In this document: piece by piece, positions 8,451 to 64,000 of the stretch
Numbering within the stretch: position 1 is the stretch's first letter
Layout: each line of letters starts with the position of its first letter
DNA from: Enchytraeus crypticus
Lineage: Eukaryota > Annelida > Clitellata > Enchytraeida > Enchytraeidae
NCBI GenBank assembly: GCA_905160935.1
Contig: CAJHZI010000430.1
Span: 802,630-866,629 of the forward strand
Direction: 5' to 3'
DNA: 64,000 nt
Program-made: the position numbers and the translations under genes
Notes under the pieces: model-generated
What the model was told of the DNA's origin: nothing
The model's input: only the letters and a program-made list of their open reading frames with translations
Databases searched by the model: none

Positions 8451-11400
8451 TTACACGTACCATTCATTAACTTCCGACTTATGACTGGTCGGCAGTGCAA
8501 ACCTAGTTCTCTGATTGGTCGGATATTGCCCACTGTCTTGACCAATCAGAGGTGAGCTTCTCGAGTAGGCAGCAATTAGCGGAGTAGCTGAGGGCAGTGT
8601 CTCGCAGGCGGCGTAGGGATACTTGTAAACCCCCAGGGTGGAATTTCCCCTTACAGATTTTAAATTTGCTTCATCTCTGCCGGGTTTTCTCAGCCTAACC
8701 ACGGCTATCAGAGTGACAATGAGTAGGGCCATGGTGCCGCCTATGATGCAGGCTGTGAGGACGAGGTTAGTGGTCAGGGAGTTAAGCCTCGTCGTGTAGG
8801 GGTGTCGGGGTGGACTGGGCGGGGTGTGGAGGTCCCCAAGTGATCCATAGACCTCGTGGGGTGTGGGAGATGGAAAAGGTCGCTCTATGGTGGTATAGTT
8901 TCCTTTTTGCACGACGATCTCTCCTGCAGAATAAGGATCCACTGTAGAACTGGATGCTGGTTTTCTTTCTTCCTCAGATTTCAGCTGTTTGGCGATTCCG
9001 GTGTCGAAAATATTCGGCGACCTCGAGGTTAGCTGTTGATTAGAGGTCCGATCAAACGCAGCCACAGGTTTCGCCGTAGTGGTAGATTGGGGCTTCCTAG
9101 GTTGACGATCAGTTGATAAAGTGCTGTGAAATGACTGCTTCTTAATGTGCCCATTCTCTGAGAGAATCTCAGGGGTTTCTGTTGTTATTGTTGATCGCTT
9201 GGTGGTGTTTGGTAAAGAAACGTACTGGAAGTATTTAAAAGTTTGTCTCGAGGCTACTGATTGGTTGGGTGTGACGTTATGGCGTGACGTCATTGTTGTT
9301 GTTGTTGGTAGCGTTGTAGTTGAAGTGCTGACATCTGCTGAAACAAAGTCTTCATCGTCTGATATATCGTCGATCTTGACAAATTCTTGAAACCTTTAAG
9401 TAAAATTCAATTATAATTATTCAAGTTGATTTTTATTATTTAGATGACTCGTAACGGCATTACGCTGGATCCTAATCCAATCAAGTTATGTAAGGAATGT
9501 ACGAAAATCTCATTGAAAGGGAAAATGGATTACAAATATCGTCGTTAACAATTAATTTTAAGCTAAAAATTAGATGCTCATGGAAATCATTTTTAAGAAA
9601 AGGGTTGTCACAAATTATGTACGACATAATAAATTACAAAGACCGTATCCGAAACCTTTCTCTGTGGTATTTTGTGATACGAGAAAGTGAATGGCACAGT
9701 GTGGGAATAGCTACGGACAACATAAATTCTCCCTCTCAACCTCTATCTCTCTCTCTCTCTTAGTGTTCTGCCTACTGGCAGGCCTATGGTCTACAACGCC
9801 TCCACTTATCTGTCTTCCGTTTTTCCGTTTCCCTCTTCATGTCCACATGCGAGTTGATCTTTAAATCATCTAATGTGAAATACCATTATTCTTGGTGGAT
9901 TCTGCTTATGACGAGGTCGGCCCCAATGTCTTCCTCAGCTTTGACTAGCATTTACTGGGCAGGGGCGTCATTCCCTGAGAAAAAATCCTGTTTACCCAAT
10001 TACCAAAATATTACATAAATTAGCAGATGGTAAACTATAATATGGAGTATAAAAGTGATGAGATTATCTGGAGTAGAAGGCGATAATAGAAGTGAACCGT
10101 TACCTATTTTTAGAGCCGACCACTGCATGTATAAATGAATCCACTGCAATTCCAGAACCTTCTGTACAATCAATCTCCAAACACTCGCTTGGTGGCAGAG
10201 ACACCACTGATATAAAGTCATCGTCGGGATTGCCTGCTGACATCTGGCGAATCAAAATAAAACGATGTATGATATCTGCTGACATCTTTTGTGTAAAATA
10301 AATCCATGACAGTTGAATAGATTGAAGATACCTGGAGATCAACGAAACCAGGTTATTGTGACAGTGAATTTAAGATACTGACGATAAAGTAGAGACGAAA
10401 TAATTAAAGAAATTCGTTTAATAGTAATTTAATCAAATATAGAGATAGTAGCGCCAAAACTATGCATAAAGACTCTTAGTTCCTATTAATTTCTAATGAC
10501 AAACGAGCAAAAGAAAACCTTGCTTTGCGCAGGATTTTGATGTCCTTCATTTTCTATTATCACATCTTCACCAGTCAAATCAAAATGAGATGAAGACTTC
10601 CTGCAAACATTAATAAATAGTAACTAATTAATGTTATCATAATAAATGAATAAGTAATTATTACGTATTGCAATATTATCTAGTTAATTTTCCAAAGTAG
10701 AGAATATAGTGAGTGAGAGAGAGAGAGAGAGAGAGAGAGAAGGACAAAGAGACAGACAAAGTGATGGGCGATTGCTTTTCTAGTGAAATTCATAACAAGT
10801 GAACTGATTGCGACATTTATTTGTATTTATTTTCAATTCAATTGCAATTATTTATTTAATTTTAAATATAAATGATAAAAATGAATGCTGATAAGTGAAA
10901 AGCACTGACATTTGACAACTGATAATAAGTGATAAGCATTATATGAGTGATAATAAGTGATAAGTATGATATGAGTGATAATAAGTGATAAGCATTATAT
11001 GATTGTATAATAAGTGATAAGCACTGACATGAGACAGGTGGTAATAAGTGATAAACATTGGCACGAGATGACTGCTAAGCTATGATCAGCACTTATAAGC
11101 TCTGATAAGCTCTGCAATACTTTGATAAGCTCTGATAAGCTCAGATAAGCTCTCACATGAGATGGGGTCTGAGGGGTTTGATCTCGAGCTGTATGTCTCC
11201 ATAGACAGTCAGTCTATCATCTCCCTCTGCCGCCATCTCCAGCAGCCAATCATCGTTCAGTACCAATCCTAGCAATCAATCAATCAATCATCTCTAGCAA
11301 CCAATCATCGTTCAGTACCAAACCTAGCAATAAATCAATCAATCAATCATCTCTAGCAACCAATCATCGTTCAGCACCAATCCTAGCAATCAATCAATCG

Positions 11401-12752
11401 ATCACCGTTCAGCACCAGTCCTAGCAGTCAATCAATCAATCAATCATCTTTAGTAACCAATCATCGTTCAGCACCAATCCTAGCAATCAATCAATCAATC
11501 AATCACCGTTCAGCACCAGTCCTTGCAATCAATCAATCAATCACCGTTCAGCACCAGTCCTAGCAATCAATCAATCAATAAACAGACCAGTCAGTAAATC
11601 TACCAAAAATGCACCAATATATTAATTAGTCACTTAAATAAAAAATCAATAAATCAATAAAGAATTTATTACTTATTCCACTAATCAATTGCCCAAGCTG
11701 ATTGAGAGGTTGATTACTGCTGGCAATCAATCAGGAAGATTCAATACAACTTAATCGATGAATCAAATCAATCAATCAATCAATAATCATATCAATTCGT
11801 GAAGTCGTATAGCTCAGTATCTAACGAATTATTTTTTATCATTCAGTAATTAACATAATAATTAGTAATTAATAATTAATCATTAATAATAATAATAACA
11901 ATCATAATAATAATAATAATAAATAAATAAATAAATAATATTTAAAAAATAATAATTATTATTACTATTATAATTAATAAATATTAAATCTACGGCATTG
12001 CCAGTCTTCTCCTCTATCCCACTAAGGCCTTGCTGCTCAAAGGCTGCAACTGGAAGCAGGGTCTTCGCCATATAAGCGATGACGCAGTTTGCGTCACGAA
12101 ATTCTTCGGGGGTACCTGAAATCACTTATTAGAGTGGTATCGTATAATTGTACAGTATCCCCCCTAAGTTACGTTGGGTGTCAAAGGCCAAATTTGGGGA
12201 GGGAGAGACGCCCCTGACAGTAAGGGAAACTAGATGGCCGTAGTGAGCAAATTTTATTTTAGTTTCTGTTTGAAAATTTTATTTTAGTTTCTGTACTACA
12301 TATGTTGATCACACTTTGGACTGTTGATTTGTATGCTTTCAAAATTTTTTGTCGGTGTTTGAAGACTTTTACATAAACATATGTACAACTACTAAATTAA
12401 ACAACCTCACCCCCCACACTACAGGGGTCCACCCCCCTGTGTCAGGGTCCCCCTGTGTCAGGGCCCCCCTGTGTCAGCCCCCGCCCCCCTGTGTCAGGGA
12501 TCCCCCCCTGTGTCAGGGCCCCACTGTCCTGCAGAAAGCTGTAAATTCTCGATTAGTCTGGACGAGAGAGGCTGCCTGCAGATGTCGTAGGGTGCAGTGA
12601 GACAGATTAAAGGTTTGCAGTGTTTGGGGGCAGTGAGGCGTACTAGAACTAGAGAAAAGAATTGCGAGCTGCAGGTAGCAGACTATAGTGTGAGAGAGAT
12701 TAATGGATCAGTGAAACGTATTGAAGAATCGGCGTTGCTCAAGTCTGGAGTG

Positions 12753-12866: not shown

Positions 12867-15800
12867 TGAGACAGTGAGAGAGTGATAGACAGAGAGAGAG
12901 AGAGAATGAGAGACAGACAGAGACACAGACAGAGAGAGAAAGACAGAGATCTCGTTTGATTGAGAAATGGAGAGAGATAGAGAAGAGAGAACAAGAAAAA
13001 AAGAGAAAAGGTAGATAAAAAACTAAAAGAGATAAGGTTAACGTCAGTTTCCTCATTTGAAAGAGATGTCAGTGACGGGCGAGCCCAGGATTTTAACCCT
13101 GCATATACTGATCCGCGGTCGCGTATCTTACCAAGATCGCACAGGATCGTCAACAACAAAATGGCAAAAATATTCAAATATCTAAGCTGCTATAAGCAGA
13201 TTTCACCACCAAATTAATTCAAGATATTCTAGCAAGAAATCAATTTAATTGAAATGTAGATTAGAAAGAATGTGGTGTTTAGCGATGGGAAGTTATTTTT
13301 TATTCTGCAGAAAAACTTGACGTTACCTGCGATGGTACCGCTGAATGTTTCCACAGGGTTACCCAGGGGTCCTTTCCTCCCACCAATATCAACAGTTCCA
13401 GGTCCATCGAACACTGTCAGTGGCATGCCTTATCAATCAATTAATAAAATATTAAATCAATCAGGTAAAAGAAACTATAGGGTTAATCATCGAAATCTAC
13501 CATTACTAGTCGAAGACTGTTTTCAGCATGTCCTGACGAAAGGGTATACTTCAGTAAACCTTTCTCTCTCCCTCTCCCTCTTTCTCTATCTCTCTCACTC
13601 CCTTTTTCTCTTAGTGCACTGCCCATTAGCAGGTCCATAGTATATTACTCCTCCACTCTTCTCTGCCTTCCGATTTCCTCCTCATATCCATATATGAGTG
13701 GATCTGTAAATTATCTGATATTCCTAATCTCGGTCTGCCTCAGTTGGGGTTTTGGTTTTAGACCACCCACCTGTTGGGCTTCTGGCTCTAAACCACCCAC
13801 CTGTTGGGGTTATGGTTTTAATCGACTCACCTGTTGGGGTTATGGTTATAAACCACCCACCTGTTTGGGTACTGGTTTAAAACCACCCACCTGTTGGGGT
13901 TACGGTTTTAAACCAACTACCTGTTTGGGTTATGGTTTTAAACCACCCACCTGTTGTGGTTCTGGTTTTAAACCACCCACCTGTTGTGGTTCTGGTTTTA
14001 AACCATCCACCTGTTTGGGTTCTGATTTTAAACCATCACACTGTTGGGGTTCTAGTTTTAAACCACACACCTGTTTGGGTTATGGTTTTAAACCACCCAT
14101 CTGTTGTAATTATGGTTTTAAACCATCCACCTGTTTGGGTTATGGTTTTAAACCACCCACCTGGTGGTGTTCTGGTTTGAGAGGGCAGGTCATCGACCCT
14201 TAGGGTGGAATTTGAGCCTTGGCGGGAGAAGTTTATCACGTGATAGGAGCCGTCGTCCACTCGTCTGAGCGTCTCTGAGATATGATGAGCGCTGAGCCCC
14301 AGGTTGTACTCAGCGTGCACATGACCTTCTATCTGCCTCAATCAATCAATCAATCAATCAATCAGTCAGTCAATCAATCAGTCAATCGATCAGTCAATTA
14401 ATCGGTCTATCAAGCGATCAATCAATCAGTCAATCATTCAATCAATCGGTCGATCAGTCAATAAATAAATAAATTACTTAATTAATTAATCAGTCACTTA
14501 ATCAATCAATCCATCAATTAATCAACAAATCAATCCAACAATTATTCTACAATCCATCCGCCAATTAGTTAATCAATTAATTAAATAAGCAATTCATTAA
14601 TCACTTAGTCTGTCAGTCAATCATTCTGTCTATCAATTAGTTAACCAATAAATTAGCGAGTCAATCAACCAGTAAGTCAATATTAATCTGAGGCCTATCA
14701 AAAGTTAAACTAGATTACTGCAATAGCCTCTAACCAGTCTTAGTTGAAGATAGTCGCCAGACGTCTCGCTGCTCATGCTCAGTATTACACAGTTAGATTT
14801 CATTGTTATTAGCCCCATCGTTAGGTTATCTGCTACTGTGTCCTCACTCTCCATTGGTCGAGCCGAGTATGTAATCAATCCTCCCATTGGTCCAAATGTA
14901 TAAGCTATACTGTCTGCATAGCAATATAGTTGTAGATGCTAAATAACAAAGCTTAATATGCTGGCATTTAGTAAGGATTCAAAGATGTTCAATAGGCCTG
15001 CTATATAATTTAAATATTTATTACACAATAAATCAGAATAAAGCTTCACCTGAGTCAGAATCAGTTCCATTGATCTTATTAATGAAACTAAAGAAGGCAT
15101 AGGGGCCCACCTTGTCATACGCAGTATGACCCAAGAATAATGATATATCAAAAGGAATGCTATAGATGATTTAAAGATCCACTCGTATGTGGACATGATG
15201 ACGAAAATGGAAGATAGAGATGAGTGAAGGCATTAGATACCATGGATCTGCCAGTAGGCAGTGCACTAAGAGAGAGAGTTACAAACCGTCAGAGCAGGTG
15301 TGACCAGTGAATGATGTAGTGGCGTTACATACCATGGACCTGCCAGTAGGCACTGCACTAAGAGAGAGAGTTACAAACCGTCAGAGCAGGTGTGACCAGT
15401 GAATGATGTGGAGGCGCAGTCACAAGTGAACGAGTTCAACAACTGAAGACATACACCACCGTTATCACACGAGCGTACCGTGCACTCTAGTCAGTCAAAC
15501 ATTCAATCATTCAATCAATCAATCTGTCAATCAATCAAGCTGTCAATAAGTCAATAAGTTAATCAACCATTCAATCAATCAAACAAACAACCAGTCAATC
15601 TGTCAATCAATCAATCTGTCAAAAAGTCAATAAGTTAATCAGTCATTCAATCAACAAATCACTTTCATCACATGAGAGTGATGTGTCATCACACAATCAC
15701 AACAAATCACAACAAATCAATCAACACCAATCACTCTCTCAATCAGTCAGTCAATCAACCAATCAATTAATCAATCAAACAACCAATCGATCTACCTATC

Positions 15801-21800: not shown

Positions 21801-23598
21801 TCAAACGGCAATAATAATTAATTATTATAATTATTATTATTGTTTTGTTAATGCTTACCCTTACAGCCTCGTCGTACCCCTAGCCTAAGACTTTCCTTGA
21901 CCTTGACCTTTGGATCATTCAACGTGACCGAATTACCGTCGATATCCACCGAGGCCATGCAACCCTCGTATCCCTCCGCCGACCAAATAGTCCCCGGTAG
22001 TCTGCTGTATTCTTGTGCGGGTAAACCGCCTAAATAAACAAGATGGCTATCTGTCGACACCTTTCTTTCCTGTCTTTCTGCTCTTTTAAAGTGACGCTGC
22101 TTTTTGTGAATGTATGTTTCAGTTATGTCGGGTGAATTTGAAAATTTTGGTTTCCCATCTTTTGATTCTTTTCTAATTGAGGCCTCAGAAGGTTGACCCA
22201 GTTTTTTATTTAGGGAGAAACCTGTGATGTCAGAATTGTTGATTTTCTCTGTGTCTCCGCCCATTGATTCCAAGTGGGCGTGGTCGTATGTAACGGTTTC
22301 GTCAACACGAAGGAGGTGCCTATGTGATGACAGACAGGTGATGCTAACGCCGTGCCATTTGTCGTCGTTTACCGGCACAGTGCTGTACATGGTGTAGTGG
22401 ACGGTGTCGTTTGAAGTAGGCGTGGTTTGACAACTGCTGCCGTCCAATGAGGTTGAGCCGTACGAATACTTGATTCGCCCGCGTAGTAATTCCACGCCTA
22501 CGTAGCATATTCCTCTCGCTGATTGGTGAACTGGTAGATTTGAAAATAGCAACAAGCCGTTTAATTGGCTTGTTTTGATCTATTTGAAAATATCAAAACA
22601 AATCAAACTTTAGATGCAAAATAGTGCAATATATAGTGCAAAATACTTTCAATGAAAAATTCTTTTCAGTTACTCTTCAATTATATATTTAACTTTACTA
22701 TCTCAAAGGAAGGGAGTTTTTTCTAGTTCACATTTCAAAAATTAATTTCAATTAAAATTCAAATAGGCCTACAGTTTTAAGCAGAATAATCAAGAAATGT
22801 GTTGGCCTATAATGCTAAACACTACGAAATTGTATTTAAAATACAATACAAATACTATTATGTAAATACTATTATGTAAATACTATTATGTAAATACTAT
22901 TTGCATAATTTAATTTACTTACCAAGAAGAATATATTGTAGGAGGAGCCAAGTTTAAGATCGACAGTCAGGTAGGAGGAGCTAGTGACGAAGGTTATGGG
23001 AAAATTGACAAGAGAATCTTTAGCCACACCCATGGACGGGAACATCCTCTTGAATCTCCGCCCTGCAGTGATTTGATTGGCTGTCAGCTTATGATAGGCG
23101 TGTCGAATCGATTGAATGTTGATATCTTCTGCATAAAAAATTTCATGAACAAATATAGGCCTAGTTTTTATGACCACATTTCGTCGACTCCCACAGACAA
23201 ATTTTATTGTTTGGACAACAAATTACATAACACCATAATTACACCGGCACTTGGGCAATAGGCCTACATAGAAAAATACCAGGTAACATGTTTTAAAATG
23301 CAGGAATTAAATCGACACAATTCGGTATTCTCAAAACATAATTGTGAAAATTCTGTAAACTGAATCTCAATTTTGCAAATGCTATAAAAATGCTATCTCC
23401 CTCTCTCTCTGTTTTTTTTTTCTCTCTCTCTCTCTCTCTAACTCCGCCCCTCTCACTGTCTATGTGTCTATCTCTATCTCTATCTCTTTCTCTCTTTTTT
23501 TTCTCTCTCTCTCTCTATTTCGCTCTCTCTCTAACTCCGCCCCTCTCTCTGTCTATGTCTCTATCTCTATCTCTATCTCTCTCTCTCTTTCTCTCTTT

Positions 23599-32654: not shown

Positions 32655-33035
32655 TTGCCTCGATCATCATCATCATCTTCTATTTTTTCTGATCGTCATC
32701 ATCATCATCTTCCCTTTTGCCTGATCATCATCATCATCTTCCATTTTGCCTGATCATCATCATCATCATCTTCCATTTTGCCTGATCATCATCATCATCA
32801 TCTTCCATTTTGCCTGATCGTCATCATCATCATCTTCCATTTTGCCTGATCATCATCATCATCATCTTCCATTTTGCCTGATCGTCATCATCATCATCTT
32901 CCATTTTGCCTGATCGTCATCATCATCATCTTCTATTTTGCCTGATCATCATCATCATCATCTTCCATTTTGCCTGATCATCATCATCATCCTCTTCCAT
33001 TTTGCCTGATCATCATCATCATCATCATCAGCCCT
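32655..33035. repeat. Minisatellite with TCATCATCATC core
   Basis: Nine or so units of about 35-44 bp: GCCTGATCATCATCATCATC then TTCCATTTT. Unit length varies by the number of CAT triplets. Confidence 0.95.
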
Positions 33036-56097: not shown

Positions 56098-59000
56098 CTA
56101 GTCCGCTTGCGATCGACGTCGGAGTCTCGATTGAGTCCCTCGTAGTGAAAGAAGACGCACTCTTTTCCGCGATCTTTTTACTTGCTTTAAGGAAACGTCA
56201 CGACGAAACGATCGAGGATAGTGATATCGTAATGATACAGCGAGCGAAAGCTTATCGCTTACAGTTTTACGCCTAATCCTACAAAATCGTTGCGGCTTAC
56301 GAATCTCGTGCCGTGGTCGCAGATTAGATTTAAACTCCGATGAAACCATCGTTGCGGCGCTACTTGGTAATTCCGGACCACGTGAGGGACTGGATTCCGC
56401 CGGGACTGCCGAAAACGTGCTCTCAACGCTTGGTCTACCAATTTCTGTAGGGCCCTCTATTTCTGTTCCCAGAAGTTCCCCTTCCTCCGAAGGACAAACC
56501 TGCGCCACTTTAAGTTTATCGACCTGTACAACTATTACTCTTCTTCTGTTAACCTCTCTTATTGCGTAATTTAACGCGTTAATTTTCTTTACAATTTCGT
56601 ACGGTCCGACATAGTTAGACTGCCACTTGGGGGACAATCCCTTATACCGTCTCGGGTTCAAGTACCAGACTGTCTGACCTACTTTAAACTCTTGCACCTT
56701 GACGTGTCCATCATAGTCACGCCTGCGCACGGCCGCAGCACGTCCCAACGCTTCGTGAGCTTGTCGATACGCTTTTCTCATAACCTCCGCCTTATTTTTT
56801 ACGAACTCTGAATAAGTTTCGTATTTGACGGAATCTGGCGTATTACCATAGGCAATTTCCAGGGCACCTCTGTAATCTCTGCCAAACATCAGGAAGAAAG
56901 GAGAATAGCCCGTCGTATCAGTTATTGTCGAATTGTACGCCGTCAAGACGAATGGTAGCCATTCGTCCCAGTCGCGTTGAGAAGAACTTATTGTTTTTGC
57001 AAGCATAGCATTCAGGGTTCTGTGCCATCTTTCTACACACCCGTTGGTTCGAGGTTGATAAGGCGTTGTACGGAGTTTCTTGATCCCAAGTAGGCTGCAT
57101 AGATCGCTGATCAACCTACTCTCGAACTCCCTGCCCTGATCGGTAATCATCCTTTGCGGTAACCCAAACACACTGAAAAGTTTGTCCAACAAGCATCTGG
57201 CGACCGTGCTGGCTTCGTGATCTCTCACAGCGAAAGCCCATTCATACTTGGTAAATAGATCCATGGTTGTGACCATGTAGATATATCCATTACGCGATCT
57301 AGGGTGCGGCCCGGTCACGTCTACTGCTATCATCTGCCAAGGGCCCTCAGACAGTATCGGCTGCATTAAACCCTGTCTCGGCGGCTTACCTCTCCTGTAT
57401 CGGGCGCACTTCTCACATCTGCTTATGTACTCCTTTCCTTGCGTATTGAGCCCGGGCCAATAGAACTTCGTTTTGATTTTCGATTCCGTACGCCTGACTC
57501 CCAGGTGCGCACCTCCCCATTTCTCGTGAGCTGCCGCCAGTATTTCCTTCCTCTCAGGCAACGGCGGGATAATCTGTAGTCGTCCGCTGCCGTATTCGCT
57601 GTCTATCTTTCGATACAGCCTACCTTCTTTTACTACAAGACTTGGTCTCTGTAGCCACACACGTTGGCAGTCATAATCCCAAAGTTTCACCTCTATGTCA
57701 GTAGGTTCTTCGCCTCGGTCGATTAACGATTTAATTCGGGTGAGACCGGTTTCGGTAGTAGTATCAACCTCAACGCGCGTATCTTGAACACCCTGTCCGA
57801 TAATCGCAACTTCAGGAATTCCAGTGTTGCACACTCCAGTCGGTAATTCTTGTACACCGGCTCTAGACTCTGTGTATCCATCTTGCGACTCAGAATAATA
57901 GTGTGGGCAACCGGAACATGGACGCCGCGACATCCCATCTGCATTACCGTGTAGCCGACCAGGTCGGTGGTGGACATCAAATTGGAACTCCTCCAGCCGT
58001 TCCAACCAACGAGCTTGCTGTCCGACGGGATCCGGAGTTCTCCTAAGCCATTTTAATGCTGCATGGTCCGTTCTTAGCAGAAATCGCCTACCCAGTAGGT
58101 AGTGTCGGAAATACTTGACGAAATAGACTACAGCAAGGAGTTCCAAACGGGTAACGCAATAGTTAAGTTCAGACCGACTGAGTGTTCTAGACGCATATGC
58201 TATTACCCTTTCGTCCCCGTGCTGAATCTGGGACAAAACTGCTCCAATTCCTGTCAAGCATGCATCTGTATCCAACACGAAAGGATCTTCTTCAGTCGGA
58301 GTTGCTAATATTGGAGCAGAAGTCAGACCATTTTTCAAAGACTCGAATGACTCCTGACAATTCGCGTTCCAACAGAACGTTTTGCGTTTGACACTGGTGA
58401 GCTCGTACAGTGGCAAAGCGATTTCTGAGAAATTCTTAAGAAACCTGCGGTAATATCCGCATAATCCGAGGAAAGCCCTCAACTGATGCGCATCTGCCGG
58501 TACAGGCCACGTCTGCACGCTGACAATTTTCTGCGGGTCCGTATGTATGCCCTTCTCGGATATCACGTGACCAAGAAAGAGCGTTTCTTTTCGAAGCAAC
58601 CGACACTTCGACGGTTTCAACTTCAAGTTGGCTTTCCTCAATCTAGAAAACACGGCTCTCAATCGATCCAGGTGCTCCTCCAAATCTACGCTGAAGACCA
58701 CAATATCGTCGAGATACACTAGGCAACACTGGTAATTCAGTCCAGCCATCACTACGGCCATCAGTCTTTGGAAGGTAGCTCGAGCGTTGCATAACCCGAA
58801 TGGCATTTTACTGAATTTGAACAATCCCGCTCGAGTGATGAATGCTGTTTTGTCACTGTCCTCTTCGCTCAACTTTACCTGATGGTATCCAGACCTCAAA
58901 TCGAAAGTTGAAAACAACCTGGCCCCGGCTAGGGCGTCAAGGCAGGCGTCTATTCTCGGTAGTGGATAAGAATCCTTGACGGTAAGATCATTTAGATGCC

Positions 59001-62000
59001 TATAATCAACACAGAAACGGGCACTACCGTCCTTCTTAGTCACCAAAACCACGTTAGATGCCCAGGGGCTGTAGCAGCGCTCCACGACTCCTGCCTGAAT
59101 CATCTCAGTGACCTGTTCATCAATTATTCGTTGCTTCGTGATGGGTTGCCTTCGAAGAGGTTGCCGGAATGGTTTAGCACCTTTCGTTTCAATGGTATGT
59201 TCTACATCACGTGCTGTTCCCAGGTCTAGCGGACCCGTAGAGAATATGGCCTTGTACTCCGATAACAGTCGCATTATTCGCTCTTTTCCCACTTCTCCAA
59301 CATTAAGTTCTACACCTTCGATCATCATCGAGATACTTGGTGGAAGACCTCCCACTTCTTCCGCGACCACTGCTGCCGAATCATTTCGAATCGTTCTCAC
59401 TAGATTGGGTACGGAAGAATCCATGTCTGGTAAATGAAATACCTCTCTCACCGGTACAACGGGCGCTATTTCTTCTCCTCCCCTGATCACAACCGAATGT
59501 TTATTTAAATTCATCAAACGAACGTACCCGGTATCTGCAGAAGTCTCCAATAAAGTACTCGCAACTAGAACTCCAGGCTGACACTCTGTGGCCTCTGCCA
59601 TCACTGGGTCGCCTGGCGTTAGATCGAACTGGCACCCGCATAATTGTGCTCGGATAATGGCTTCGGAATGCGGAGCTACTGTCGCGGTTTCCTTTGCTTG
59701 CACGCGCATAATAGAGCTCTGTTCTCCACTACAAAGGATTATGCGCTTACCCCCAACTACCACAGCATTGCCCTTAACAGCCCAATTCGTAACATGTCTA
59801 CTCACCCAATCCTGTCCTAACAGAGCTTCATCTATGGACGGTGAGACTAGGGCTACTCCCGTAGTCTTCTTGCCGCTTACTATCAGTTCAAAATCACCCT
59901 CCCCGCTCACATCTAATTTGGTCTTGTTGGCAGCCAAAACCTTCTCCTCGCAACGACGTGTCGCCATATTCTCGCACAACTTCGCAGGTAATAGACAATA
60001 ATCTGCTCCGGTGTCGATCAGAAAGACAGATTTCCTTCCGTTGATATCCCCCACAATAAATCTCTTCATGTGCGCGGTCATAGTCGCCCTTCGATATACT
60101 ATTGTCTCTGCGGTGTCCTCGTCTCCAGACCTTCTTCCGTTAAGCTCCGCCGTATTTTTCTCATCCGTACCCCCTTCTCTCAAATCTCTCCTACCCGCTA
60201 CAAGTCTTTCACGGTTAGGGGCCGACGGGCATAAGGCAGCTCGGTGACCTCTCCCGTGACAGTTGTAACATGTCATTCTGTCGTCTGTCACTCGCTCTCG
60301 ACGCGGTTCTTTTTCGTGTCTTTCTAGCCTCGTTTGCCCCTTTTTACTGTTACAGTTTTTTCGGACATGTCCAGTCTGCCCGCAATTGAAACACGTTATG
60401 GTATTACGCTCGACCTTCCGGAATGCGTTTGTGAACGCCTCTTCAGGGGCTTCCGCACTCCGCACGCGGCCGTCGTATCGATGGAACTCTTCTACCTTCT
60501 TGCTCTTGTTCCCAAATACCGCACGATGATTAGCTTCCAGCTCTTCCGCTATATCGTACGCCTTCGTAAGGGTAGTGGGCCGATGGTCCTTAATTTTCAC
60601 TTGAAGTGGCGGATTGTTGAGAGCTCCGATAAAAGTATCTACAGCTATCGACTGCACGGTCTCGGACCACGGATCCAAATAAGCTAAGGGTAATAACCTC
60701 CGCACCCCCAGGTACACGTCACGAATATCCTGACCCTCCGTCCTTCTTAAACCCGTCAACTCCGACCGGTAGATGCTTCGCTGCCCCCTGACGCCAAACC
60801 TTTCTTCTAGCCGGTCAACAAGTTCCTCATAGCAAGAAGGGCAACCTCCATCCGCCAGGACCAATGCCGCTGACCCGACGAGAGACATTGACAGATGAAT
60901 AAATTTCTCATTTTCGCTCCATTGATTATATTGAGCACACAAATCCACCTGATTAAGAAACACACTGAGCGGATAAGAACCGTCATAGCGATTAATCTTC
61001 ACCGAACTCGAGCTGCTATTAGCTGGGTTCCGAGCGATCACCGACGATCTATAATCGTCCTCGATATCCCGCCGACCATGTTCTCGATCAGCGTATCGGC
61101 TGTATGTTGATTGACCTCCACAATAAGGTTCCTCCGCTCTGTCGACCCCCCAGCTCCGAGAGGGGCGATAGCTGTACGATGGGCCTACCGGTACTCCCGT
61201 GCGTTTGTCCCATTCTTCCTCGTATCGATTCCAGCCCGATGCGTGTCCCACCGCCCGGTTGCTAGTCTGTGACAAATAATCAGAAGTCTTCATCAACCCA
61301 CCTCCATGCCTGCACTTACCGGAAAGAGTCTCCGTGCGGCGGCTCGGTGGCATCAACACCTCTTCGCGTTGAGGGTATGCCATGTAGTCAGTACACGGAA
61401 TTGAATGATTTCTCCAAACCTGATTATCTCGCTTCGGGAATATCCACTCCCTTGACGGTTCCCTCGATCGCCGCTCACGCCCGCTGCTCGTAGGTGCATT
61501 ATACTGGCAGTTAGACGGATCAGGAGAGTTTCTCCTTCCCGCAGGTTTCTCTTCGGTGCAGTTCCGAGTCCAGCCGATCTGTCCACGTTCTATCTCCGCG
61601 TTCTCTACGTGTCCACGGCGTGCTACCCTACATTCGTACTCATGCCCGCCGATGGCTTCACCTTTACCGCAAGGAAGGACAGTATCATTCCCCTGTCTCC
61701 AAATTCTACCTCCCTCATAGGTATCTCCTCTTGTACCGCTTCCGTCCCTATTATTCCAACTCGCTCCCGCCGTGGTCGTGGTCTGTGTCTCATATGATCC
61801 TCTCCCGGAGTTATAGCCATCTCCGTCACATCCCTCGGCTTCTGCGTCCGCTGACACCCAGACCATTCTAGATCCACAGGACTTCCGGAAGAGCACTTCG
61901 TCTCCGTCATTCTTCCACTTCAATCCTTCGGGAGAAGTGTAATCTCCAGTCTTCGCTCTGTCTGATCTCCTAGAACCCACATCCGAACACACTCCGCCGT

Positions 62001-62415
62001 AGTTTTCCTCCCGGAATCTACCTCTCTCTACGGAGCTCACATCCGACAAATATACCCCACTTCTGGTACCATTGTGGTGCGGCGCAGCGCCGACGTCGCC
62101 TATCGGCGGCCGCTGCGTCGTCACCGCCGTCGGTCGCAACGGCGCCGCTCTGTCGAGAGGGCCGGCGGCCGGCGTAAGTAGGCGGGGGGCGTCCGCCTCG
62201 GGCGCGAGAAAGGTTTCTCGCTCTGTCGGAGTAACGCTCCCTTGATATATCGAGAGAGGATCGAGTGTCCTAGTAGCACCTACTGTCACGGAGACCGGTA
62301 AAGAATGTCGCGATTCACCGCGACTTGACGGATCATCTATCAGTCGATTGAGCGACTCTGCACTGTCAGGGGTTGGTGCAGAGTCTTGCTGCCATACGAC
62401 GTTAGCATCTTCCAT
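56098..62415 (-). CDS. Gag-Pol polyprotein of the Ty3/gypsy element, 2105 codons
   Basis: One continuous frame. Residues about 1-460 are S/R/G-rich with no known fold. A retrotransposon capsid-like region spans about 470-630 (FLNQVDLCAQYN, ELVDRLEERFG). Two CCHC knuckles lie at about 675-688 (CFNCGQTGHVRKNC) and 716-729 (CYNCHGRGHRAALC). The protease has LIDTGAD at about 799. RT covers about 1090-1290, with the YLDD catalytic box near 1234. RNase H follows (LDTDACLTGIGAVL), then an integrase H2C2 finger (about 1610-1660), the D-D-E core and a GPY/F-type end (YVGPYEIVKKI). The protein order PR-RT-RH-IN with a GPY/F module is that of Ty3/gypsy. The frame starts about 340 bp inside the LTR and reads through the primer-binding site. 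Confidence 0.92.
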   Translation of the reverse strand: MEDANVVWQQDSAPTPDSAESLNRLIDDPSSRGESRHSLPVSVTVGATRTLDPLSIYQGSVTPTERETFLAPEADAPRLLTPAAGPLDRAAPLRPTAVTTQRPPIGDVGAAPHHNGTRSGVYLSDVSSVERGRFREENYGGVCSDVGSRRSDRAKTGDYTSPEGLKWKNDGDEVLFRKSCGSRMVWVSADAEAEGCDGDGYNSGRGSYETQTTTTAGASWNNRDGSGTRGDTYEGGRIWRQGNDTVLPCGKGEAIGGHEYECRVARRGHVENAEIERGQIGWTRNCTEEKPAGRRNSPDPSNCQYNAPTSSGRERRSREPSREWIFPKRDNQVWRNHSIPCTDYMAYPQREEVLMPPSRRTETLSGKCRHGGGLMKTSDYLSQTSNRAVGHASGWNRYEEEWDKRTGVPVGPSYSYRPSRSWGVDRAEEPYCGGQSTYSRYADREHGRRDIEDDYRSSVIARNPANSSSSSVKINRYDGSYPLSVFLNQVDLCAQYNQWSENEKFIHLSMSLVGSAALVLADGGCPSCYEELVDRLEERFGVRGQRSIYRSELTGLRRTEGQDIRDVYLGVRRLLPLAYLDPWSETVQSIAVDTFIGALNNPPLQVKIKDHRPTTLTKAYDIAEELEANHRAVFGNKSKKVEEFHRYDGRVRSAEAPEEAFTNAFRKVERNTITCFNCGQTGHVRKNCNSKKGQTRLERHEKEPRRERVTDDRMTCYNCHGRGHRAALCPSAPNRERLVAGRRDLREGGTDEKNTAELNGRRSGDEDTAETIVYRRATMTAHMKRFIVGDINGRKSVFLIDTGADYCLLPAKLCENMATRRCEEKVLAANKTKLDVSGEGDFELIVSGKKTTGVALVSPSIDEALLGQDWVSRHVTNWAVKGNAVVVGGKRIILCSGEQSSIMRVQAKETATVAPHSEAIIRAQLCGCQFDLTPGDPVMAEATECQPGVLVASTLLETSADTGYVRLMNLNKHSVVIRGGEEIAPVVPVREVFHLPDMDSSVPNLVRTIRNDSAAVVAEEVGGLPPSISMMIEGVELNVGEVGKERIMRLLSEYKAIFSTGPLDLGTARDVEHTIETKGAKPFRQPLRRQPITKQRIIDEQVTEMIQAGVVERCYSPWASNVVLVTKKDGSARFCVDYRHLNDLTVKDSYPLPRIDACLDALAGARLFSTFDLRSGYHQVKLSEEDSDKTAFITRAGLFKFSKMPFGLCNARATFQRLMAVVMAGLNYQCCLVYLDDIVVFSVDLEEHLDRLRAVFSRLRKANLKLKPSKCRLLRKETLFLGHVISEKGIHTDPQKIVSVQTWPVPADAHQLRAFLGLCGYYRRFLKNFSEIALPLYELTSVKRKTFCWNANCQESFESLKNGLTSAPILATPTEEDPFVLDTDACLTGIGAVLSQIQHGDERVIAYASRTLSRSELNYCVTRLELLAVVYFVKYFRHYLLGRRFLLRTDHAALKWLRRTPDPVGQQARWLERLEEFQFDVHHRPGRLHGNADGMSRRPCSGCPHYYSESQDGYTESRAGVQELPTGVCNTGIPEVAIIGQGVQDTRVEVDTTTETGLTRIKSLIDRGEEPTDIEVKLWDYDCQRVWLQRPSLVVKEGRLYRKIDSEYGSGRLQIIPPLPERKEILAAAHEKWGGAHLGVRRTESKIKTKFYWPGLNTQGKEYISRCEKCARYRRGKPPRQGLMQPILSEGPWQMIAVDVTGPHPRSRNGYIYMVTTMDLFTKYEWAFAVRDHEASTVARCLLDKLFSVFGLPQRMITDQGREFESRLISDLCSLLGIKKLRTTPYQPRTNGCVERWHRTLNAMLAKTISSSQRDWDEWLPFVLTAYNSTITDTTGYSPFFLMFGRDYRGALEIAYGNTPDSVKYETYSEFVKNKAEVMRKAYRQAHEALGRAAAVRRRDYDGHVKVQEFKVGQTVWYLNPRRYKGLSPKWQSNYVGPYEIVKKINALNYAIREVNRRRVIVVQVDKLKVAQVCPSEEGELLGTEIEGPTEIGRPSVESTFSAVPAESSPSRGPELPSSAATMVSSEFKSNLRPRHEIRKPQRFCRIRRKTVSDKLSLAVSLRYHYPRSFRRDVSLKQVKRSRKRVRLLSLRGTQSRLRRRSQAD
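62054..62071 (-). other. Primer-binding site, tRNA-Leu-like
   Basis: In element sense TGGTACCAGAAGTGGGGT lies one base inside the 5' LTR. It would pair with a tRNA 3' end ACCCCACTTCTGGTACCA, the form of animal tRNA-Leu (UAA type). The assignment is from memory of tRNA ends. Confidence 0.65.
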
Positions 62416-64000
62416 TGTATACCGTCGCTGACTACCCGATTGGAAGTACTAGTCGCGTTTATCTATAGAACAAAGTAATTACGACAAACACAGGCAAAAA
62501 CAGTCAAATTAACAGAATTATTAATCGTATATCAGTATTATATGTGTAAAACAGAGTCAACTACGAACTCTATTGCACATAACTAAATAACTGTTTAGCG
62601 AGTCCTATCCCGCAAATTAGGTTCTTATTTAACTCTATCGCGTAATTGTCCGTATCAATGAGAATCAATGAGAGACCGCCGCACTCGCCCGACTCGCCGT
62701 ACTCGCCGGAGTCCAGAAACCGTAGACCGCCGCACTCGCCGGACTCGCCGCACTCGCCGGAGTCCAGAAACAGGTCTTCTGACGTAGACCGCCGCACTCG
62801 CCGGACTCGCCGTACTCGCCGGAGTCCAGAAACAGTGACAGCCGCCAACTCGCCGGGGACTCTGCTACTCGCCGGACGAGTCCAGAGAAAAGATATCTTC
62901 TATGTAGACCGCCGCACATCGCCCGTACTCGCCGGAGTCCAGGAAACAGTAGACCGACGCATCGCGGACTCGCCGGGACTCGCCGTACTCGCCGGAGTAC
63001 CACGAAATCCAGATCTTCCTGAAGGAGACCGCCCGCACTGCCGGACTCGCCGTATAGACGGACGGAGTCCAGAAAACAGTAGGACGCCGCACTCGCCGCA
63101 CTCGCGGAGTCCAGGAAACAGGTCTTGCGTAGACCGCACGCACATCGCCGGACGCGACGTACTCGCCGGAGTCCAGAAACAGTAGCCCGCCGCACTCGCC
63201 GGACTCGCCGCACTCGTCGGAGTCCAGAAACTGTGGACCGCCGCACTCGCCGCACTCGCCGGAGTCCAGGAACAGGTCTTCTGACGTAGACCGCCGCACT
63301 CGCCGGACTCGCCGTACTCGCCGGAGTCCAGAAACAGGTCTTCTGACGTAGACCGCCGCACTCGCCGGACTCGCCGTACTCGCCGGAGTCCAGAAAACGT
63401 AGACCGCCGCACTCGCCGGACTCGCTGTACTCGCCGGAGTCCAGAAACAGTAGACCGCCGCACTCGCCGGACTCGTCGGAGTCCAGAAACAGGTCTTCTG
63501 ACGTCTATTTAGGAAATAAAGAAATTGGTATGCTGGCAGGTGCTCATAAACGAACTATTACGGTCTTAGAGAATAAATTTCGAGAGCATTAGATACTGTA
63601 TTCGAACCCAGCGTCTCTCCGAACTTGTTCTAGTGGAACAACGATATCCTGCGAGTTATTCAATAGTATATATGAAGGATCACACTTACCCTCACCTGAC
63701 GTTGATGGCCTCTCTGCACTCCCTACTTCCTGCCCGACCTGTCCTTCCGTGATCTCTCGTCGGGTTTCTCACCGACACGTCCCTTGTAGTTCTCGAAGGC
63801 TGCTCCTCGAGCGTTATCTTTACTTCCCTTAATAATTATCTATACTACAGATTCTACAACTATAACTATTAGCTCATCACGTACGGTGCTCTTAATATAG
63901 CACTTAATGTATCTTAATATCTCTTCTAATATATACGTATACGCTTTTATCTGCAAGAAGCCGCACACAGCGCTATTAATGAAACACTATTAGCACACGC
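62073..64000 (-). repeat. 5' LTR, partial at window edge
   Basis: Matches 51909 onward to about 53908 at high identity outside the minisatellite (62670-63505), whose unit order and number differ between the two LTRs. About 225 bp should lie beyond the window. Confidence 0.88.
62670..63505. repeat. GC-rich minisatellite in the 5' LTR
   Basis: Same CGCCGGACTCGCCG-type units as 52505-53405. The part 62840-63180 is irregular compared with the clean units on either side. Confidence 0.9.

Follow-up and report, generated by a model that had tools for sequence, protein, structure and literature searches.

Organization of the neurexin gene

On its minus strand, the window (the whole stretch of 64,000 nucleotides that was analysed) contains the 3′ portion of a neurexin gene of the classical type, apparently from an invertebrate. 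The model is composed of eight exons and seven GT-AG introns with matching phases, is intact, and encodes 854 residues. Its best tblastn matches, to lamprey and shark neurexins, run colinearly through LNS5, the third EGF and LNS6, and it exhibits the classical layout of LNS-EGF-LNS followed by a stalk, a membrane span and a short tail ending in EWYV, which we take to be PDZ-type. The exons, all on the minus strand, are LNS5 (21859..22579), EGF (15379..15486) and LNS6a (14735..14913), each placed by tblastn and the model; LNS6b (14161..14332; homology, alignment and model), which ends at splice site 4 (SS4) in phase 1; LNS6c (13327..13428; tblastn E 4.5, well placed in the alignment), the first exon past SS4; LNS6d (11157..11268), with a weak tblastn match (E 0.94) to shark neurexin and a colinear frame; a stalk exon (10104..10331) placed without a homology match by frame and splice sites only; and the last exon (8451..9393), where the remaining stalk, the membrane span, the tail and the stop were recognized by eye from the translation. 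LNS6c, LNS6d and the stalk exon have the weakest basis.

A protein search gave 78 matches from 1300 candidates, all vertebrate and 30-38% identical, of which 77 are named neurexin and one laminin-G protein; an earlier search (738 candidates, lengths 408-1298 aa) had given nine matches, all bird CRUM1. Pfam recognized Laminin_G_2 in the model (E 4.5e-30) and an EGF below the cut-off (E 0.0022; 18.7 vs 21.5 bits), and the same search found no PF01034, a family present in most of the vertebrate matches. Of the six LNS domains that mark the alpha form, LNS5 and LNS6 are the only ones seen, and the best 26 minus-strand tblastn matches contained no convincing upstream LNS exon. Within the LNS5 exon, about 87 residues (22300-22040, minus strand) separate two tblastn matches that are about 19 residues apart in the lamprey protein, and this apparent insert is rich in basic and polar residues.

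Elsewhere in the window, a long open frame on the minus strand (56101-62448) contains motifs resembling those of a Ty3-type retrotransposon polyprotein. Short frames and GC-rich 51-bp arrays recur on both sides of it, near 52-54 kb and 62-64 kb, in the manner of long terminal repeats. A 32-bp minisatellite of 11.5 copies (93% matches, TRF) occupies 32663-33026.

The LNS6b junction is positioned at SS4

All 78 vertebrate matches, among them many isoforms from a small number of species, could be anchored at the junction residue, where 42 carry an insert of 30 residues and 36 carry none. When the model was aligned with 13 vertebrate rows, the gap fell at the split glycine, which is both the exon junction and the point at which the SS4 insert enters LNS6. 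The end of LNS6b displays R-x-P-x-G, as do nine of the 13 vertebrate rows, the other four having H for R. Matches in a solved-structure search to 3mw3, 3mw2 and 2r1b, presumably insert-bearing neurexin chains, end at query residue 117, which is this same glycine. Anchoring, alignment and structures therefore agree with the earlier note, which had identified the junction as splice site 4. It had also spoken of the second LNS domain; the domain is indeed an LNS domain, but it is the LNS6 equivalent, following LNS5 and the EGF. No vertebrate-type SS4 cassette exon was found in 14160-13429 among the best 26 minus-strand tblastn matches to two full-length insert-bearing neurexins, P0049 and P0063, a search that could miss a much-diverged exon.

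A 30-bp array spans the LNS6b donor

Exon LNS6b ends CCACCAG/GTGGGTGG, and its last 18 nt already belong to a minisatellite (13743..14178, minus strand) for which TRF gives a period of 30, 14.5 copies and 83% matches, with no indels. A 20-base core (up to three mismatches) occurs 14 times in the window, always inside this array, compared with a maximum of one occurrence across 100 shuffles; the roughly fourteen copies of the donor region described earlier are thus borne out. The description of the intron as consisting of such copies held for the array itself but not for its extent, since the array covers only 418 nt at the donor end of the SS4 intron, which is 732 nt long (13429..14160, minus strand, from the model). 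Of the final 18 nt of the exon, 15 agree with the consensus built from the other 13 units, a level reached at none of 126,904 positions outside the array on both strands, where the best match is 14. Because the array starts inside the exon and matches it this closely, the unit is to be read as the final 18 nt of the exon followed by the first 12 nt of the intron, so that each copy brings a donor region with it. The units differ from one another by 17% on average, and neighbors are no closer than distant units (5.08 vs 5.09 differences per 30), with one adjacent pair identical. Rfam returned no family at the gathering score.

Donor copies and their predicted products

Donors were scored with a PWM and by pairing with the U1 end. 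The first donor, CAG/GTGGGT (14155..14163, minus strand), is presumed to be authentic and has a PWM score of 5.94 and a U1 duplex of -10.9. Thirteen donor copies follow it, from 14131 to 13771; the unit that ends at 13741 is not followed by a donor. GT is kept in 11 of the 13 and is lost after 14101 (AT) and 14041 (TG). The copy after 14131, CAG/GTGGAT (14125..14133, minus strand), lacks the +5 G and is weak (PWM 2.13), while that after 14071, CAG/GTGTGT (14065..14073, minus strand), is of moderate strength (PWM 5.53, U1 duplex -7.2). Both are in frame, and joining them to 13428 in the model yields full-length proteins of 864 and 884 residues compared with 854, that is, 10 and 30 additional residues. 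The reading frame of LNS6b remains open to the first in-frame stop of the array, a TGA at 14036..14038 (minus strand). Intact GTs after 14131 and 14071, inserts of 10 or 30 residues and a frame open to about 14036 had all been claimed from the sequence before, and each was confirmed.

The remainder of the array behaves differently in the model. The other nine of the eleven GT-bearing copies, when joined to 13428, all stop at residue 434, so splicing from most of the array would be poisonous; a second in-frame stop, created by two changes in one codon, is also present. Seven of the 13 downstream copies equal or exceed the first donor in score, all of them past the TGA, including the top-scoring CAG/GTGAGT (13825..13833, minus strand; PWM 8.51), which gives a truncated product. 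Since the open frame ends within the fifth unit downstream, changes in copy number outside the four proximal copies would be expected to create no new insert length. Folding predictions of donor access gave no clear pattern.

Constraint on the repeat units

No coding constraint is evident in the 14 intronic units, whose single changes comprise 9 silent, 31 replacing and 1 stop, compared with 9.2, 29.7 and 2.1 for random placement, in a count that leaves out the two-change stop. The donor columns are changed in all five of the nearest extra copies and in one of the eight distal ones (permutation with free split, P 0.016), in a post hoc test that counts GTGAGT as intact and treats copies that share a history and are not independent. 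Non-donor columns show no such trend, with means of 0.8 changes near and 1.25 far when three hypervariable columns are left out. Donor changes concentrated near the real donor fit purging of competitors better than use. The donor 9-mer ranks 9 of 30 for conservation within the unit, and a UUUAAAA core barely exceeds the rest (0.939 vs 0.872), so conservation of either is slight only.

Other arrayed junctions of the gene

Two other junctions of the gene are also duplicated in tandem. Exon LNS6d is preceded by six extra copies of its acceptor and exon start (11234..11579, minus strand; TRF and model), each with its own acceptor and with 17 to 19 of the first 20 bases identical, all upstream of 11268; all six acceptors lead to stops. 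At the EGF exon, a 92-bp unit composed of 38 nt of exon end and the start of the intron is present in two copies (15228..15416, minus strand) that are identical at 87 of 92 positions. Tandem arrays of any period make up 18% of the window. An excess of gene boundaries within arrays was not significant against a circular-shift control: 3 of 13 positions lie in arrays, and the fraction of shifts at least as high was 0.068 for periods of at least 28, 0.148 for at least 20, 0.29 for at least 8 and 0.646 for all. The positions were 12 splice boundaries and the stop, in early coordinates of which some are 1-2 nt off, with the LNS6d donor and both stalk-exon boundaries left out. In our reading, the SS4 array is one instance of splice junctions being duplicated in tandem in a genome rich in repeats.

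TTGA runs lie within 40 nt upstream of four of the eight acceptors (15486, 14332, 13428 and 11268) and downstream of none of the seven donors. The circular-shift fraction is 0.003 (0.014 at 20 nt and 0.006 at 60 nt), in a post hoc comparison. Branch points follow the pattern yUnAy, which UUGAU fits, so these acceptors may have their branch points within the TTGA repeat.

Interpretation of the array

The array is probably a neutral repeat that happens to span a donor, with the first donor mostly used and the further copies acting as decoys. We infer both the choice of donor and the neutrality of the array. A 30-nt segment across the LNS6b donor (18 nt of exon and 12 nt of intron) would have been duplicated in tandem within the SS4 intron and expanded to about 14 copies. 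The first donor would mostly be chosen and joined to 13428, giving an ordinary neurexin without an SS4 insert. Among the decoys, the nearest would have been weakened, whereas the distal ones, mostly intact, would read into an in-frame stop, so that stray use would mostly produce truncated or decayed transcripts and occasionally the form with 30 additional residues. Some inclusion through the latter donor is plausible, given that its score is near that of the first (5.53 vs 5.94) and its product is in frame.

The best-surviving alternative is that the array works as an SS4 switch, in which neuron-regulated use of 14131 or 14071 would add 10 or 30 residues to the ligand rim of LNS6; we regard it as unlikely. 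It is favored by the exact position of the junction, by the complete in-frame products of both donors, by an insert of 30 residues equal in length to that of vertebrates, and by the precedent of IFI6, where downstream repeat donors are described as used (PMC4526556). The length match may be chance, however, since the repeat yields only multiples of 10. The units give no sign of evolving as coding sequence, the donor after 14131 is weak, GT is missing from two of the four copies that come next after the first donor, the post hoc test above finds the nearest donors degraded, and the seven donors past the stop that match or outscore the first would compete. A review (PMC12665717) also describes extensive alternative splicing of neurexins as apparently exclusive to vertebrates; as a counterpoint, the honeybee neurexin gene is credited with 12 alternative sites (PMC2570956). 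The array thus resembles a neutral repeat, its decoys mostly harmful, more than a working switch, and the suggestion of the earlier note that it forms a route to SS4 diversity finds only partial support: no coding constraint is evident, the nearest donors are degraded, and nine of eleven GT copies truncate the protein.

Less probable still is that distal donors such as 13831 serve as poison junctions, whose truncated or decayed transcripts would set the level of full-length protein or supply a secreted form. The seven high-scoring donors past the stop would suit such a role, and honeybee neurexin isoforms that have no membrane span and are apparently soluble are reported (PMC3487723). The donors nevertheless show no sign of maintenance beyond the general identity of the units, and other stretches of the unit outrank the donor 9-mer in conservation.

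The array could also be a binding platform, in which UUUAAAA-type motifs 30 nt apart in most units dock dimers of STAR-family proteins and steer the choice of SS4 donor, though we give this little credence. The 418 nt hold 23 UWAA motifs, the densest run of the gene region, where stretches of 418 nt (array included) have a mean of 8.3 and a fraction of 0.001 reach 23; on the minus strand of the whole window that fraction is 0.020. Exact UUUAAAA occurs at nine places in 30-nt steps. The STAR proteins SLM2 and Sam68 control mammalian SS4 through UWAA motifs whose number matters (PMC5397175), and the spacing of their motif pairs is more than 15 nt, with enrichment up to about 30 (PMC4735526). Any repeat whose unit carries one motif will show many, however, so the density is a lead rather than evidence of function. 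In addition, the core is hardly more conserved than its surroundings, UUAA alone is denser in the intron 14734-14333 than in the array (32.3 vs 26.3 per kb), and no cassette exon was seen at SS4 among the best 26 minus-strand tblastn matches.

A reading that combines these elements would have an SS4 switch rebuilt from a minisatellite, with in-frame donors (+10 and +30) and a UWAA ladder, in which copy number tunes the ligand choice of LNS6. It would originate in a habit of this genome of multiplying splice junctions, a habit suggested by the two other arrayed junctions of the gene; we hold this reading to be just as improbable as the binding platform. The slightest chance of all falls to an assembly or collapse artefact that made the array or its copy number wrong in the contig, for while assemblies are error-prone at tandem arrays, the copies differ by 17% on average and both array ends join coherent exon or intron sequence.

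Much work has been devoted to SS4 as a splice switch in synaptic adhesion. Should the repeat donors be used, receptor diversity would be set by a mutable minisatellite in place of a cassette exon. Even if the array is neutral, the gene tolerates one junction with 11 decoy donors that keep GT and another with six decoy acceptors, and these decoy-rich junctions offer a natural test of splice-site choice.

Comparison with known systems

The repeat units of human IFI6 add a few residues in frame. A minisatellite of splice donors was reportedly described in this gene by Turri et al. in 1995. According to PMC4526556, the minisatellite of IFI6 (6-16, G1P3) gives several donors and several mRNA species, with two downstream units used; the title of a paper on this splice-donor minisatellite appears among the references of PMC3618361. 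Repeat-encoded alternative donors are thus not new in kind, and the earlier view that a repeat-based source of SS4 diversity would be new has to yield to this precedent. The units of the SS4 array likewise carry donors, 11 of 13 downstream with GT and two giving full-length products. The systems differ in that downstream units of IFI6 are reported as used, whereas those of the SS4 array are putative donors, most of which would truncate the protein, and in that the window gene is a synaptic receptor with its array at SS4.

Among open-licence PMC articles, nothing on point by title appeared for neurexin with minisatellite or with octopus, and nothing at all for neurexin splice site 4 with mollusc, although such absence in print carries little weight. 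In honeybee neurexin I, human site 4 coincides with an intron/exon junction, as it does in the window, so having an intron at SS4 does not set this animal apart; a repeat array is unmentioned in the section of that paper on site 4 (PMC2570956). The vertebrate site (AS4) lies at the same LNS6 residue, where 30 residues are either inserted or missing. This vertebrate insert does not resemble the array units and is encoded by a cassette exon (PMC5397175), whereas the only route seen in the window is an alternative donor within the repeat. The mammalian intron beside SS4 also has many UWAA motifs, but there the clusters flank the cassette exon and have a tested function (PMC5397175), while the array offers motif density only. 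Among donor minisatellites, the SS4 array is at an unusually telling place.
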